Source of the DNA: a virus
Reading direction: 5' to 3' (one strand)
Virus record (IMG/VR): IMGVR_UViG_3300008259_000030
Coordinates: 1-64,000 of that record
Length of the DNA: 64,000 nucleotides
This document shows positions 38,849 to 46,173 of this stretch, piece by piece (positions within the stretch are counted from its first letter, which is position 1; each line of letters starts with the position of its first letter). The position numbers and the translations under genes are program-made. The notes beneath the pieces are model-generated. The model searched no databases and was not told the origin of the DNA. It saw nothing but the letters and a program-made list of their open reading frames with translations.

Positions 38849-41332
38849 TTAGGTCATAGCTAACAGTTTAGAACGCTCTAATCCAACATCTTGTTTTGCT
38901 ACATCAATCATGCGATTAATATTACTATTTAAACGTTTTACTACATCTCTCATCGAGATCTGAGCACTTGTATTGATCACATTTTGAAGTTGTCCTGGTG
39001 ATACTACTGCTTCTTTTCCGTGAAGCGTGGCCATTGTACCGCGTTTAAAGTTTCCAAACAATCCTCCAAGGGTTCCAAGAGTACCAGTATTCATACCCAT
39101 ATAAGTTGAAGGATATTCTTTGCGTAACCTTTCTACTTCATCAGCATACTCTTTTCTCTCCATAATCCTTTGAATTTTAGGGAGATTTCTATTTTTTGTT
39201 TGGGCAAACAAAGCAGGATCAAACATTACTTGTCTTAAAGGATTTAGGTTTGTGCCTATTCCACGGATGCCTTTGTTTAAAAGATTAGCCACTGCTTCTC
39301 TTTGTAACAGCGTTAACCCTCCAAATTGATCTCTATCGTCTGGCATCGAAGCACCTGCCTGTGCTTTACGTTCTCTAAGTGCTAGAATTGCTGCGGTAAG
39401 AGCAGCATCTGTAACTCGACTGCCGCTGCCTCCTTCATAAGTGCTGTCGTAAGATCTAAAACGTCCATCTGAGCCTCTTAATAAATCTCTAATATAATAT
39501 GTTTTGCCATCTATAACAACTTTTTCATCTTCTGGACTTACCGGCATCCTTCTTTCTTCTTTAGGCAAAATTAACTGGTCTCTATTTTCTCTGGCAAATC
39601 TAAGCCTAGCTTCAGCTTCTGCCGCCATCCGATCAAGGTCTGGACCAATTCCTATTTTTGCTAACCACTTTGCTGCACCTTCAACATTAAATGTTGAATA
39701 TATTGCTTTTCGCATGTACATATGAAAATATATAATGGCCGCTTCAAACATGCTTTCAAATATATTTTTCATGTATACAAGCGTGTCATCATCTGTGAGA
39801 TTTGCAAAAAAGTTTTTTACATACGGTAACGCATCATTAGCTAATTGTATTAGATATTTGCTAAACGCTCTTAGTTGGTCGGGTATCATAGCTATTTTAA
39901 ATTCTTTGGCTAGTTCTTTCATGATAGGAAAGAATCCTTTTAATAGTGCTCGATAGACACGATATACCGATCTTTGAAATTTTCTTAGAGTATCTGTAAA
40001 CGCATCTGTTTTTCCTTGCTCTTTTTTAGCTGCTTCAACCATCTTAACAAATTGACCTTCCATGTCTTTGCTTAGACCGCCTTGTTTAATCATAAATTCC
40101 ATTGCTGGTGTAAGAGCCTTAACTAGCTTTTTAGAACTTTCATTTCCCGATACTGAACCTTTTATTATACCTTCCAAATCTTTCATAGCTTCTTTAGAAT
40201 TAGCTAATTGACTGCCTATGGTATTATTAACATAATCTTCAAATACTTTAGGACTAACACTGGTGTCTTTGGCCATTTTAATAATAGTATCCATAGACCT
40301 TTCAAAACTTGGCCCTAACGCATACTGTAATGCTATTACAGTATCATTGATAGATTGAACACCTAATTCTCTAGATTTAAATAATTCTGCTCCTTGAGCA
40401 CCAAATACCATAGAAAAACTCTGTAAAGCTGTTTCCATCCTAGCCTGCTGAGCAGGTAATAATTTTCCAACTTTTAGTTTATATGATAGGTCTTGGTTAG
40501 CTGCCGCTGCGGCTTCTTGACGCTGCTCTTTACCCATGCCTGTTATTTTTTGAAAAGCATCTATTTGACTAGCGTATTGTAAAAATTCGTTGCTAGTGCT
40601 ATTAAGATTGTTTTCTGTTACAGCTTTTCCTCTTCTAGTTGCAGCATAGAATTCTAATAGTAAATCATTTTGTTGATATGTGTTATATCCCCATCGATCT
40701 AATATATCTGACACTCGATCAGAATCCATAAACATAGCAGCAGATAATTTTCGTAAATTATCTATACCGGTAGTCATTGTACCTCCGCCTAACGATACTA
40801 ACGTTTCTGCGTTACTTCCAACCAACGATACAAGCTCGTCAGTAGACAATCCCATATCTAAAGCAGTTTCTTTAAATTTAAAAATACTATAATTAAATGT
40901 TGCTCCGTGTTTGTTTGCTTCTCGCAGCCCGTCGTTCCAAGATTCTAAAGCCACTATAGTTTCTGTTACAATGCCGGCAAGATCACCTAAAGTGTCTCCC
41001 ACAACTGGAAGTTTTTTAATTAAATCATCTTGTATAAATTTTCCGTAAGCACTGAGTTTATCTTCACCCCTAGCTATCATAGAGATAAAATTCTTACCAG
41101 CACTAACTGTATTTGATAGTCCGGCAGTTAATGTAGTAAAACTTTTTTTTAGTAATTTAAGTGATGTACCAGCAGCACCAGCTTCGTCAGATACGTCGTC
41201 GCCGCCTCTATTATTGTTAGAGTTATCTTTATAGTATCTAACAATTTCTTGAAGCGTGGTTTCGGACGCAGCGTTGTTAATTACTCCGCTACCTAATTTT
41301 GAACTAAAGTATTCTACAGTATTTTTAGCCAT
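38849..41332 (-). CDS. tape-measure-like virion protein, paralogue without M23 domain (827 aa)
   Basis: MAKNTVEYFSSKLGSGVINN, a helical body with hydrophobic stretches (near residues 75-130 and 480-560) and a C-terminal segment GTLGTLGGLFGNFKRGTMAT near residue 757 are shared with the next gene, so the two are paralogues. Length, helix content and the place before the baseplate genes suggest a tail-tape-measure or internal tail protein. It lacks the M23 metallopeptidase part of its sister. The two genes overlap at TAATG (41330-41334), so translation is probably coupled. The tape-measure role is an inference. Confidence 0.75.
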   Translation of the reverse strand: MAKNTVEYFSSKLGSGVINNAASETTLQEIVRYYKDNSNNNRGGDDVSDEAGAAGTSLKLLKKSFTTLTAGLSNTVSAGKNFISMIARGEDKLSAYGKFIQDDLIKKLPVVGDTLGDLAGIVTETIVALESWNDGLREANKHGATFNYSIFKFKETALDMGLSTDELVSLVGSNAETLVSLGGGTMTTGIDNLRKLSAAMFMDSDRVSDILDRWGYNTYQQNDLLLEFYAATRRGKAVTENNLNSTSNEFLQYASQIDAFQKITGMGKEQRQEAAAAANQDLSYKLKVGKLLPAQQARMETALQSFSMVFGAQGAELFKSRELGVQSINDTVIALQYALGPSFERSMDTIIKMAKDTSVSPKVFEDYVNNTIGSQLANSKEAMKDLEGIIKGSVSGNESSKKLVKALTPAMEFMIKQGGLSKDMEGQFVKMVEAAKKEQGKTDAFTDTLRKFQRSVYRVYRALLKGFFPIMKELAKEFKIAMIPDQLRAFSKYLIQLANDALPYVKNFFANLTDDDTLVYMKNIFESMFEAAIIYFHMYMRKAIYSTFNVEGAAKWLAKIGIGPDLDRMAAEAEARLRFARENRDQLILPKEERRMPVSPEDEKVVIDGKTYYIRDLLRGSDGRFRSYDSTYEGGSGSRVTDAALTAAILALRERKAQAGASMPDDRDQFGGLTLLQREAVANLLNKGIRGIGTNLNPLRQVMFDPALFAQTKNRNLPKIQRIMERKEYADEVERLRKEYPSTYMGMNTGTLGTLGGLFGNFKRGTMATLHGKEAVVSPGQLQNVINTSAQISMRDVVKRLNSNINRMIDVAKQDVGLERSKLLAMT

Positions 41333-43920
41333 TATGCTATCGTCATTTGATTATTTTCTATGTAGGAAAGTTGAGATCTTGATAGATTAGTGCGTTCTCT
41401 CATTAACATTTCTAATCTTGCAAAATTTACATCTATAGATTCCAACAATTCTTTAGTGGCCATATTGCCAGCACCTGTCATAACATTATTCATTTGCTCA
41501 GGAGTCATAACAGCTTTTGTACCTTCTAACATAACATCTGTAGCTGATCCAAAATCTTTAAACAAACTACCATAAGTTCCTAAAGTTCCTGTACTCATAC
41601 CTGGCTTTATTAACGATGTAGGATCAAATTTTACTCCGTTGCGTCTAGCTTCTAAATGTAAATGTCGACCTGTAGAAGTTCCTGCTCCCGGATCGCCCTT
41701 GCCGCCTCCTGATATTCCTATCTCTGTGCCAGCCGTTACTGTACCGCCATGTAGTTTTCTAGTAAATTGGTCTTGTGTGTCTGTTTGGTGTAAATGACCG
41801 TAAAGTAATTCAACACCGTCAGCACCTAAAATTTTTGCATAGTATCCGTAACCTGATTCATATCCGTATGAAACTTTTCCGTCTATGCCGGCTCTTATTT
41901 TTGCTTTATCTGCCTTTACATCCACACCCGGATGTACACTTTCACGCATCACGTTACCATCAGCATCGCGATATTGACGTATATTACCAAATTCGCTGTT
42001 TATTGCTAAAGATGATCCTTTTCCTACGGGATTAAAAATAGCTAGTTTATCTTTTAATTCAGCAACTATTTTATCTGAAGCAGCTACTACGCCCTGATCT
42101 TTTTTACCGGTTTCGGTTACTGAGCTTGCCCTACCACTCTTATTTGGTACTGCTGCCCCTCTTTCTGATTGTGGTGTATATCTTTCTGGTAACTTTGGAC
42201 GAAGTATATTTTGTCTCTGTTCGTGATCTTCTAGGGCTTTTGCTAATGCGTTATCTCTATCTACAGCAAAATCGCCCATCCTATCTTTATCAAACATGGT
42301 TTTAGCATGGTACATAAAATTAATGCCCATACGTTCAAAGAAATATGTTACTTCGTTCCAAATAAAGTCTCTGCCGTTTTCATCTCCTAGATATTTGAAA
42401 AATGTTATCACATCAGGCAGATACTTTTCAACACTATCTTTGATCCAGTTACCAAACGCTTTTACTTTACCTGGTAAATCTTGTCTTTCTAAAACTTTTC
42501 CTAAATCATCCAACAATGGATATAAAAAATCCATTAGCTGAAATTTTAAATCCTGCATAGCCATTTCAAAGTCATTGAGGAACTTAGTAATTTCGTCTCT
42601 AGCTTTTTGTTCGTCTCTAGCTTTCTTAAACATGGCTCTAAGATCTTTTTCAGTTAACTTAGATACATCTCCGTATTTTACTAATTGATTTAGAATAGGA
42701 TTTATAGCAGCGGTAAGAGATTTAGCATCACCGTAACTAGCACCGGCAGCAGCTAATAATCCTTCTAAACCGGATGTTGATTTAGCAGATTTTAGCATCA
42801 CTGAAATAATATCATCTTCTATCCTACTAGACATTTTATCTATAGTAACATTAGTATCTAAAGCAGTGTTGATAGAATCTTTCATAGACCTAACTAATTG
42901 CGGTTGTAATACCATTAAGTTTCTAGCACCTTCATCGCCCGGCGGCATTTGAAGATACAATGATTTAAACAGTTCAGCACCAGACTGGCCATACATAGCG
43001 GTGTAATTGGCTAACGTGTTAAGTAACTTAGATCGTTCTTTTTCATCTAGTTTTTGTAAAGCCATTTTGAATACAACGTCTTTAGTTGCTACAGCCATTT
43101 CTTCTTCTAATTTTTTTACACTTTTTCCTGTTAATGAAGTCAATCTCATTATGTTGAGTTGAAACTTTTCATAACTGTCTGCAACATCGGCATCTGAACG
43201 TTTATCTCTAAGTAATCCCCCGCCCATAATATCAATGTAACTAATCAATCCTTCATTAACATTCCTAGCATTCATACCCATTTGTCTTAGAGTTTGTGTT
43301 GCTTTGCCGCCATCTCTATTCAACAATCTGGATATTTTACTAAATCTCTCAGCACCTTCAGTAACTGTTTTTCCTAGGTTCAGCATCACTGATGAGTTGC
43401 TAGAAATCATTTTCATATACGAATCAATATCCATAGCCGCATCCGTTGCTGCTTTTGAAGCTCTAAGGATACTGTTACCAAATGTTGCTCCAGTTTGAGT
43501 GCCTGTTTTTAAACTCTCATTCCAATCTTCAAACACTTCAATGCTGTCACTGATTATTCCACCTAGTCCACCTAACAGGCCTCCAACGATAGGCAATTTA
43601 GCAATAACTTGATCATTTAATGTTTTGGTATAAGAACTCATCTTGGTGTTGCCTGTTAGCAACATTGCTCCCATACTGCCCACGGCACCTATTACGTTGC
43701 CAATCTGATTACCTAGACCGTTGGCTAATTTTGACATTACATCTAGATTTTTAGCTGGATTTTTTGTCTTGCTCGATCCGCCACCGCCGCCACCACCTGG
43801 AGATTTAGATTCTGATTTAATTGCGGCCAGTAGTTCACGCATAGTAGCCTCGCTAGCTATGTTGTTTAATACTGTACCGTCTAGTTCTCCGCCTAGGATT
43901 TCTACTGTAGTTTTTGCCAT
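41332..43920 (-). CDS. tape-measure-like virion protein with M23 endopeptidase domain (862 aa)
   Basis: A long helical body (residues 1-600) starts MAKTTVEILGGELDGTVLNN, with a Gly-rich linker near residue 40. Residues about 655-760 form an M23/LytM zinc endopeptidase domain. The first ligands are in ESVHPGVDVKA (HxxxD), with YGHLHQTD near 706 and GRHLHLEAR near 753 (the HxH motif). This enzyme class cuts peptidoglycan cross-links, so it probably helps the tail cross the cell wall. The C-terminal GTLGTYGSLFKDFGSATD is shared with the paralogue. A perfect late promoter lies 59 bases upstream. Confidence 0.85.
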   Translation of the reverse strand: MAKTTVEILGGELDGTVLNNIASEATMRELLAAIKSESKSPGGGGGGGSSKTKNPAKNLDVMSKLANGLGNQIGNVIGAVGSMGAMLLTGNTKMSSYTKTLNDQVIAKLPIVGGLLGGLGGIISDSIEVFEDWNESLKTGTQTGATFGNSILRASKAATDAAMDIDSYMKMISSNSSVMLNLGKTVTEGAERFSKISRLLNRDGGKATQTLRQMGMNARNVNEGLISYIDIMGGGLLRDKRSDADVADSYEKFQLNIMRLTSLTGKSVKKLEEEMAVATKDVVFKMALQKLDEKERSKLLNTLANYTAMYGQSGAELFKSLYLQMPPGDEGARNLMVLQPQLVRSMKDSINTALDTNVTIDKMSSRIEDDIISVMLKSAKSTSGLEGLLAAAGASYGDAKSLTAAINPILNQLVKYGDVSKLTEKDLRAMFKKARDEQKARDEITKFLNDFEMAMQDLKFQLMDFLYPLLDDLGKVLERQDLPGKVKAFGNWIKDSVEKYLPDVITFFKYLGDENGRDFIWNEVTYFFERMGINFMYHAKTMFDKDRMGDFAVDRDNALAKALEDHEQRQNILRPKLPERYTPQSERGAAVPNKSGRASSVTETGKKDQGVVAASDKIVAELKDKLAIFNPVGKGSSLAINSEFGNIRQYRDADGNVMRESVHPGVDVKADKAKIRAGIDGKVSYGYESGYGYYAKILGADGVELLYGHLHQTDTQDQFTRKLHGGTVTAGTEIGISGGGKGDPGAGTSTGRHLHLEARRNGVKFDPTSLIKPGMSTGTLGTYGSLFKDFGSATDVMLEGTKAVMTPEQMNNVMTGAGNMATKELLESIDVNFARLEMLMRERTNLSRSQLSYIENNQMTIA

Positions 43921-43997: not shown

Positions 43998-44891
43998 ATG
44001 CCAGATTTTGATCCAAGTAAGTTTCAGTCTCAACAAAATGCTGCTCCAGCAGTTAATCCTCTAGCGGCGTTTTTTAGACAACCAAAGATCTATGTTTCTC
44101 TGCCGTCAAAAGGTGAATTTTATCCGGAAGGGTCGTTAAAAAAGACCACTAACAACGAATATCCTGTGTTCGCCATGACGGCCAGAGATGAATTGTTATT
44201 TAAAACCCCAGACGCATTGATGAACGGGGTAGCAACTAGAGAAGTTATCAGTAGTTGCATCCCTAACATTTTAGATCCTTGGAAGATTCCAAGTCTTGAT
44301 GTTGATGCGGTGTTATCAGCAATTAGGATTGCCACATATGGCGAGGAAATGGAAGTTTCTGTTAGATGCCCGCAATGTGAAAATCTTAATGACTCTATGG
44401 TTGATCTACGTGATGTGTTGGATAGATTAAACAAAATTAATTTTGATACCAAAGTTGAAATTGGTTCAGACATGATTGTGTATCTGCGTCCGATGACTTA
44501 CGAAGAAATTACTAAAACTGCGTTGAAAGCGTTTGAGCATCAGCGAATTTTTCAAGTAATCAACGATGATACAATTGAAGAGCAGGAAAAATTAAAAATT
44601 TTCCAAGAAAGTTTTATTAAGTTAACCGATTTAACTATAGATACTGCTGTAAAGTGTATTACAAAGATTGAAAGTTCTGCTGGTATGACTGAAGATCCTG
44701 CTTTTATAAAAGAATTTTTACAAAAGACTGATAAGTCTGTGTTTGAACAGATTAACACCGCAGTGAGCAAAACTAGAGAAACTGGAAACCTTAGCAGCTT
44801 TCATAGTAAATGCCAAAAATGCGAACACGAATGGGACGTTGAGCTTACTATGGACCAATCGGATTTTTTCGGCAACGGCTTTCGACGTTAA
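43998..44891 (+). CDS. 26: baseplate hub protein gp26 (297 aa, unshifted form)
   Basis: The segments FFRQPKIYVSLPSKGEFYPE, YPVFAMTARDELLFKTPDAL and CIPNILDPWKIPSLDVDAVL are the signature of the T4 gp26 baseplate hub family in marine phages. Two CxxC pairs (RCPQCENLN near residue 117, SKCQKCEHEW near 272) suggest a zinc-ribbon-like site. The last codons in the normal frame give DFFGNGFRR, but a slippery T TTT TTC lies at 44864-44870, so a fraction of ribosomes may shift to -1 and make a longer product. A GGTGGAA Shine-Dalgarno precedes the ATG. The late promoter is just upstream. Confidence 0.88.
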   Translation: MPDFDPSKFQSQQNAAPAVNPLAAFFRQPKIYVSLPSKGEFYPEGSLKKTTNNEYPVFAMTARDELLFKTPDALMNGVATREVISSCIPNILDPWKIPSLDVDAVLSAIRIATYGEEMEVSVRCPQCENLNDSMVDLRDVLDRLNKINFDTKVEIGSDMIVYLRPMTYEEITKTALKAFEHQRIFQVINDDTIEEQEKLKIFQESFIKLTDLTIDTAVKCITKIESSAGMTEDPAFIKEFLQKTDKSVFEQINTAVSKTRETGNLSSFHSKCQKCEHEWDVELTMDQSDFFGNGFRR

Positions 44892-44923
44892 GTATCCCCG
44901 AGGTATTAGCCGAGTCGAAAGCC
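44864..44923 (+). promoter_or_regulatory. putative -1 ribosomal frameshift signal
   Basis: The heptamer T TTT TTC (44864-44870) is in the correct phase with gp26 codons GAT TTT TTC. Six bases later begins a perfect 10-bp stem, GGCTTTCGAC (44877-44886) with GTCGAAAGCC (44914-44923), closing a 27-base loop. The -1 frame is open from 44843 to the stop at 45098-45100. Slippery heptamer, short spacer and stable stem are the three standard elements of programmed -1 frameshifting. Confidence 0.8.
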
Positions 44924-45100
44924 CTTGATGAACAGGCAAAGCAGATCAAACTGGAAGCTATGCGTTCAGTTTGGTATATGCGTGGCGGATTGTCATTTGC
45001 CGAAGCCATGAACCTCAGCTGGGACGAAAGAGAGTTAGTCCTTGAGATAGTCAAGGACAACATGGATATTACTAAGAGTTCTGGACTACCGTTTTTTTAA
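44870..45100 (+). CDS. gp26 -1 frame extension, gp51-like position
   Basis: After a -1 slip on T TTT TTC the frame continues RQRLSTLSIPEVLAESKALD ... EAMRSVWYMRGGLSFAEAMN ... ELVLEIVKDNMDITKSSGLP and stops at 45098-45100. The shifted product would be about 367 aa (291 from gp26 plus 76), against 297 aa unshifted. The shifted frame has no ATG, GTG or TTG before 44960. A separate 46-codon product from ATG 44960 (weak GGAAG upstream) is the alternative. The gene lies where T4 has gene 51, a hub assembly factor, but I cannot confirm homology. The stop overlaps the convergent minus-strand stop at 45097-45099. Confidence 0.75.
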   Translation, partial: RQRLSTLSIPEVLAESKALDEQAKQIKLEAMRSVWYMRGGLSFAEAMNLSWDERELVLEIVKDNMDITKSSGLPFF

Positions 45101-46173
45101 CCAGCACGTACAGCTTTTAATAACTGAAGTGCTTTAGCAGTCTGAGCAGGATCCATCTTAACCAATTCTCCAAAAGCATTAGACATTACATTCATTTGCT
45201 CTCTAGTTAATGGATTACCAGCCATATAGCTAGTAACTGATTTTCTTAATTGATTAGCATCGATACCAGGAAGCAATTCTGATAGTTTACCGTAGTTAAG
45301 GCTACCTTTGGTTTTAGTTGGTTCTTCACCGCCTGACATACCTTGTTTAACTCCACGAATAAACGATGATCCTACACCGCTGCCGCCAGCGTCATCTCCA
45401 GCGTCACCGCCTGATCGGCTAATGTCTTGAGCTGAAGCACCTTGCCCACCAATGACCGCATCAAGTTGTTGACCCATTTTGGCTTTAAGGATATCAGTAA
45501 CTGCTGCTTTGATAATACTGTCTACTGTTGAATTCTTAAGTTCTACTTCGTCAATGATTGTTTCACTAACTGGGTTGTATCGTAATCCTGCTAATTGAGC
45601 AATGCGTGATAATTCACCAATGCTCTCAGCTGATTTGTTCTTTTTTCCTTTAGGAGGAACTTCATCGGCAGGTGCTTCAGGAGCACCTGGAGCTGCTGTA
45701 TCAGCGGGAGTTTCTGGAGCACCTGGAGCTGCTGTATCAGCGGGAGTTTCTGGAGCACCTGGCTCAGCGGGTGTCTCAGGAGCAGCATCACTGCTTGGAT
45801 CTGCTGGAACTTCTATCGTACCAGTAGGTTCAACTCTATCTGCCCCAAGTTCTTTGGCAATATCACCAGTTGCTGCACTACCCGATGCCATAGCTGCTTG
45901 TTTTAACGCAGCTTCGGCTCCTGCTGTAGGAAAACCGTTGGATTTTAAAAAGGCAATTAACGCATCCGAATTAGGTTTTTGATCTGTTTGACCTAGATAA
46001 AAGTCAAATTGTTTTCTGAGGCCATTAGCATACTTGGCCATGTCAAGAGCACCCTTAGCAGAACTACTTCCAAACTTAGAAGCAATACCTAGACCAGCCC
46101 TTTTTAACATACCTACAGGTGCTTCAGATACCTGTTGTTGTTGTTTTTGAGATAATATATCAGTGATTTTCAT
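45097..46173 (-). CDS. Ala/Pro-rich protein with 12-aa tandem repeats (358 aa)
   Basis: MKITDILSQKQQQQVSEAPV, then a helical N-terminal part (SKFGSSSAKGALDMAKYANG), a low-complexity Ala/Pro/Glu linker near residues 125-170, and a C-terminal helical part ending AQTAKALQLLKAVRAG. The linker has perfect repeats of APGAPETPADTA, coded by two identical 36-base units at 45680-45751 and a partial third. No family is recognised. A perfect late box is 29 bases upstream, so it is probably a late structural or assembly protein. The stop overlaps the convergent gp26-extension stop. Confidence 0.72.
   Translation of the reverse strand: MKITDILSQKQQQQVSEAPVGMLKRAGLGIASKFGSSSAKGALDMAKYANGLRKQFDFYLGQTDQKPNSDALIAFLKSNGFPTAGAEAALKQAAMASGSAATGDIAKELGADRVEPTGTIEVPADPSSDAAPETPAEPGAPETPADTAAPGAPETPADTAAPGAPEAPADEVPPKGKKNKSAESIGELSRIAQLAGLRYNPVSETIIDEVELKNSTVDSIIKAAVTDILKAKMGQQLDAVIGGQGASAQDISRSGGDAGDDAGGSGVGSSFIRGVKQGMSGGEEPTKTKGSLNYGKLSELLPGIDANQLRKSVTSYMAGNPLTREQMNVMSNAFGELVKMDPAQTAKALQLLKAVRAG
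45680..45751 (-). repeat. 36-base perfect tandem repeat (2 copies, plus partial)
   Basis: Units 45680-45715 and 45716-45751 are identical, and a partial third starts at 45752. They code for APGAPETPADTA. A perfect unit of this kind can change copy number by slippage, so the linker length of the protein is likely to vary among relatives. Confidence 0.85.

Follow-up and report, generated by a model that had tools for sequence, protein, structure and literature searches.

The slippery site of phage lambda, which makes the tail-assembly chaperones gpG and gpGT, is GGGAAAG, and the contractile-tailed phage P2 produces its gpE/E' pair by a -1 frameshift on T_TTT_TTG. The tail-assembly chaperones (TACs) of T4-like phages were identified by Vladimirov, Gautam and Davidson (Virology 2022, 566:9-15), whose abstract reportedly states that several T4-like groups have conserved the frameshift, T4 itself relying on genes 26 and 51 instead. 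Poly-T -1 frameshift signals in T4-like TAC-N genes are mentioned, citing Vladimirov et al., in a passage of PMC12846349, and T4-like phages with separate short and long genes instead are mentioned, citing the same work, in a passage of PMC10885494. For T4, PMC3004832 counts both gp26 and gp51 among the hub assembly chaperones and states that the finished particle lacks gp51, but genetic work cited in the same article puts gp26 in the hub. No primary description of the gp26/gp51 frameshift was found in the literature searched. A preliminary description of the present locus knew of no earlier account of such a frameshift in T4-type phages, a claim of novelty that fails, since the passages cited above attribute frameshifted TACs in some T4-like groups to Vladimirov et al. 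2022. A frameshifted T4-like TAC is already known; the lineage and a quantified, moving stem are what is added here.

Organisation of the gp26 3' end

The window, by which we mean the whole stretch of 64,000 nucleotides that was analysed, is part of an 83-kb virus record. The features at and around the gp26-like gene are the following.

41332-43920, minus strand: protein of 862 aa, a candidate tape measure that carries an M23 peptidase domain (Peptidase_M23, E 3e-12)
43998-44891, plus strand: gp26-like ORF of 297 aa, predicted short form (TAC-N), assigned by PF12322 and phrog_150
44864-44870, plus strand: slippery heptamer T_TTT_TTC, read from the sequence, invariant and in phase in the relatives sampled
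44870-45100, plus strand: -1 frame extension of 76 aa (TAC-C, gp51 position), supported by the open frame, dN/dS and invariant residues
join(43998..44870,44870..45097), plus strand: predicted long product of 367 aa (291 + 76), from the sequence
44877-44886, plus strand: 5' arm of the stem, GGCTTTCGAC, 6 nt after the heptamer, supported by randomisation, fold and covariation
44914-44923, plus strand: 3' arm of the stem, GTCGAAAGCC, supported by randomisation, fold and covariation

The 3' end of the gp26-like ORF reads ...DQSDFFGNGFRR, with the heptamer TTTTTTC phased T_TTT_TTC in its frame and the stop codon at 44889-44891. Reading in the -1 frame resumes at CGG 44870 and yields RQRLSTLSIPEVLAESKALDEQAKQIKLEAMRSVWYMRGGLSFAEAMNLSWDERELVLEIVKDNMDITKSSGLPFF; this frame is open up to 45097, is closed by TAA at 45098-45100, and has its earliest ATG, GTG or TTG in the window at 44960 (an ATG), 71 nt past the gp26 stop. 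The two arms of the stem pair perfectly over 10 bp, and the gp26 stop codon lies within the 27-nt loop that they enclose. The preliminary description had reported this same arrangement, namely the heptamer in the gp26 frame, a six-base spacer, the perfect stem, a -1 frame without a start before 44960, and products of 297 and about 367 aa; all of its coordinates were verified, and the sequence predicts products of 297 and 367 aa.

The window's 42 ORFs of at least 100 aa were scanned for in-frame X_XXY_YYZ heptamers, of which they hold 108. The gp26 heptamer is the sole one situated at most 60 nt from its own stop, the sole one with a -1 frame that stays open for 90 nt or more beyond the stop, and the sole one accompanied by a stem of such strength. 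The locus has two marks of a frameshift cassette, a heptamer near the end of the 0 frame and an overlapping -1 frame that is under coding selection and has no start of its own. Furthermore, the stem of the window exceeds protein-preserving synonymous randomisation (p = 0.002-0.004) and the RNA fold gives z = -3.55 versus dinucleotide shuffles. A structure 3-9 nt downstream, as a stimulatory element is placed, is present in the window; a minority of relatives have a weak one or none.

Conservation of the heptamer and variation of the stem

Relatives were sampled in two independent ways. In the first, 26 representatives were chosen by gp26 peptides, and all 26 carry TTTTTTC 10-25 nt upstream of the gp26 stop together with an open -1 frame. 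In the second, loci were chosen by the -1 domain alone, using a narrower alignment instead of a 13-sequence one that was too diverse for the locus search, and the best 80 of 522 relatives (66 distinct sequences) were retained. TTTTTTC stands directly ahead of the -1 domain and in phase in 80/80 of these loci, the run being exactly T6 followed by C in every one of them, and neither an in-frame fusion nor a loss of the heptamer was found among these best 80 of 522. Relatives that keep the downstream domain and lack the heptamer, which the preliminary description had named as evidence against its proposal, were encountered in neither sampling. A programmed -1 frameshift on the plan of lambda G/GT and P2 E/E' is strongly supported. 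Among the three elements whose conservation the preliminary description had proposed to follow by alignment, the heptamer and the open -1 frame are kept in the relatives sampled and the stem is weak in some loci.

The nearest isolates to the uncultivated aquatic lineage of the window are Atu_ph07 and Phosso, and both carry T_TTT_TTC with a -1 extension, as do 121Q, RaK2, PA5oct and Vibrio 2.275 and the cyanophages S-SM2, P-HM2, S-CRM01 and S-PRM1. A T_TTT_TTT version is present in HTVC008M, RAS14, nACB2 and Cr30, and no such site was found at the gp26 3' end of T4, IME-SM1, Vibrio D503 and Maynard. Loci L031, L033, L043, L044, L100 and L110 have a -1-frame ATG that overlaps the stop of gp26 or lies next to it, and a certain amount of reinitiation could there supply the C-terminal domain on its own as well. 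In two annotated genomes the -1 domain is cut to an internal start, namely as gp687 of Atu_ph07 (NC_042013.1, locus L044, 5930-6052) and as gp51 of P-HM2 (GU075905.1, locus L134, 1589-1681).

The stem was examined in 64 dereplicated loci, where the best stem starting 3-9 nt past the heptamer was set against 500 randomised versions that preserve the -1 protein and the pooled codon usage. The loci score 20.6 on average and the randomised sequences 11.6; the z of about 26 overstates independence, the loci being akin, and the randomisation leaves out the constraint that the 0 frame puts on the first 10-25 nt. Taken singly, 75% of the 64 loci reach p < 0.05. Covariation is thin in the window's own clade, which shows one compensatory pair (111/500 shuffles as high), and the larger clade with a 75-aa extension was therefore used, its members being taken with or without a stem. 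In this clade 92% of the stem cells pair, double-change stem cells number 19 versus 4.2 expected (0/500 shuffles as high), and every measure drops when the stem partner is slid. A compensatory change from A-U to U-A is found in locus L007.

The stem is not universal across relatives; it is weak, for example, in L021, L023, L096, L103, cyanophage S-SM2 and pelagiphage HTVC008M. Across loci it sits 3-7 nt behind the heptamer and the length of its loop varies by lineage from 8 to 52 nt, so that the 3' arm has been rebuilt at different places. We lean, by a small degree, towards a reading in which the heptamer is fixed in a large, mostly uncultivated T4-like clade and the stimulatory stem has been repeatedly rebuilt, its 5' arm staying and its 3' arm moving. 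Selection would then act on the pause, not on a particular structure, and would presumably keep the short and the long chaperone at a set ratio.

The gp26-like protein, the -1 domain and their neighbours

The gp26-like protein matches Pfam T4_baseplate (PF12322) over residues 31-291 with an E of 4.5e-16 and 59.6 bits versus a cutoff of 24.5, which places it in the T4-type gp26 family above the curated cutoff and over most of its length. It also matches PHROG 150 (phrog_150, baseplate hub; E 3.9e-21), T4 gp26 is matched by profile, and its fold matches in BFVD are T4-like baseplate hub proteins (E 9e-24). Cyanophage gp26 and T4 gp26 match each other in sequence (H142, E 2e-8). A short and a C-terminally extended form, as in a TAC pair, are predicted here from the sequence (297 and 367 aa), and gp26 is better read as the TAC short form, which the -1 domain extends at the C terminus, than as a structural part of the hub. 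Of the earlier view of a T4-type hub gene at the gene 51 position, the assignment to the gp26 family is retained (PF12322/phrog_150) and the structural hub reading is replaced by that of a chaperone short form.

In the -1 frame past the gp26 overlap, changes fall mainly at third positions, and dN/dS within the clade is 0.03-0.2 where estimable; the -1 domain evolves as a protein. Its residues R1, W35, R38, G40 and N64 are invariant in 40 sequences, and the conserved residues start straight after the heptamer. AlphaFold2 gives an all-helical -1 domain with a pLDDT of 91. A tblastn search with the domain gave hits immediately behind gp26 in both Atu_ph07 and Phosso. Searches of the -1 product against Pfam and PHROGs gave nothing significant, and a PDB fold search with the -1 domain and the gp26 part gave no reliable match. 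The profile comparison of the -1 product with T4 gp51 is not significant, and cyanophage gp51 resembles T4 gp51 in its C-terminal motif by eye only.

Two large divergent genes adjoin the gp26-like ORF. The 862-aa protein matches TMP_2 weakly (E 9e-4, below the cutoff), and the annotation of the RaK2 gene at its position notes similarity to a tape measure protein. This protein, encoded divergently from gp26, is likely the client of the chaperone; its identity as a tape measure is weak. The genes at 38849-41332 and 41332-43920, both on the minus strand, encode proteins of 827 and 862 aa with ends that are similar by eye (start MAK.TVE.., end TGTLGT..G) and may be a paralogous tape-measure-like pair. 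On the other side, 45097-46173 (minus strand) encodes a 358-aa protein with near-perfect Pro/Ala-rich repeats (APGAPETPADTA), and the stop codon of its gene shares bases with that of the -1 frame on the opposite strand.

Probable frameshift, alternative readings and described systems

The analysis establishes the site, its phase, the stem, conservation and covariation, the coding selection on the -1 frame and the protein family, whereas the occurrence of slippage, its efficiency and the chaperone role of the products are inferred. The cassette is very probably a programmed -1 ribosomal frameshift on the lambda G/GT plan that would give a short (297-aa) and a long (367-aa) tail-assembly chaperone. 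Ribosomes translating gp26 would arrive at T_TTT_TTC, where the stem-loop downstream probably causes a pause, and the tRNA-Phe in the P site and in the A site would shift back by one base to pair with TTT TTT. A minority would continue in the -1 frame beyond the gp26 stop and make the 367-aa protein, and the majority would terminate at 44889 and make the 297-aa one. Going by homology and architecture, the short and the long product would be TAC-N and TAC-NC (compare gpG and gpGT of lambda), which, as the tail is assembled, would cover the tape-measure protein and bring in tube subunits.

It is very improbable that the downstream ORF is instead a separate small gene (gp51), translated without frameshift, either from a start codon of its own or through termination and reinitiation at the stop of gp26. 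Databases do annotate a separate gene (Phosso 319, Atu_ph07 gp687, S-SM2 gp51 and P-HM2 gp51), and the -1-frame ATG at or overlapping the gp26 stop in the loci named above would suit such a gene. However, the window and many relatives have no ATG, GTG or TTG ahead of the conserved N-terminal part of the domain, whose conserved residues begin right behind the heptamer, and T_TTT_TTC, although invariant and exact in its phase and spacing, would be left without a role. This reading was rejected on the missing start and the invariant heptamer.

Still less probable is slippage of the RNA polymerase on the T6 run, which would join both frames through mRNAs with extra T. The site is indeed a homopolymer of six T, with longer runs in HTVC008M, RAS14, nACB2 and Cr30, but six T is short for bacterial transcriptional slippage. 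Moreover, T6 followed by C in the X_XXY_YYZ phase is kept in all of the best 80 of 522 loci, and a covarying stem 3-7 nt downstream fits ribosomal, not transcriptional, slippage. The position in a homopolymer would equally suit a once-continuous gene broken by an indel or by a sequencing error, yet the same offset occurs in 66 distinct sequences from independent assemblies and also in isolate genomes, selection acts on both frames, and the fetched loci include zero in-frame fusions. On these grounds the broken-gene reading was rejected, and we give it a negligible probability.

With programmed ribosomal frameshifting as the preferred reading, this would be a widespread route to the long TAC in phages of the gp26 family, where T4 uses two genes. 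The phages covered comprise uncultivated freshwater and marine phages, rhizobial and enteric jumbo phages, and cyanophages. The cassette would represent a bacterial -1 frameshift that is well conserved and stimulated by a stem, and of which nature offers dozens of variants to test, and annotations that list a truncated or separate gp51 would be corrected by the frameshift reading.

Compared with the T4-like TACs of Vladimirov et al., as far as the citing passages describe them, the locus shares a TAC-N of the gp26 family, a -1 TAC-C at the gene 51 position and a poly-T site. The lineage described here has a 76-aa C-terminal domain with a WYMRGG motif and a strong covarying stem-loop. The TAC of Vandenendeviridae (phage Adele, PMC12846349) likewise uses a -1 frameshift, with a conserved GTTTTT at the end of TAC-N; it belongs to another phage family, and the part of the description seen mentions no stem. 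T4 gp26 falls in the same family by profile match, whereas T4 has genes 26 and 51 as two distinct genes, divergently oriented on opposite strands, and its gene 26 is without a heptamer near its end. With lambda gpG/gpGT, the locus has in common a predicted short form, a predicted minor -1 long form and the putative role of chaperone for the tape measure, but its candidate tape-measure genes lie on the opposite strand. Unlike that of P2 gpE/E', the heptamer here ends in C and is accompanied by a 10-bp stem.
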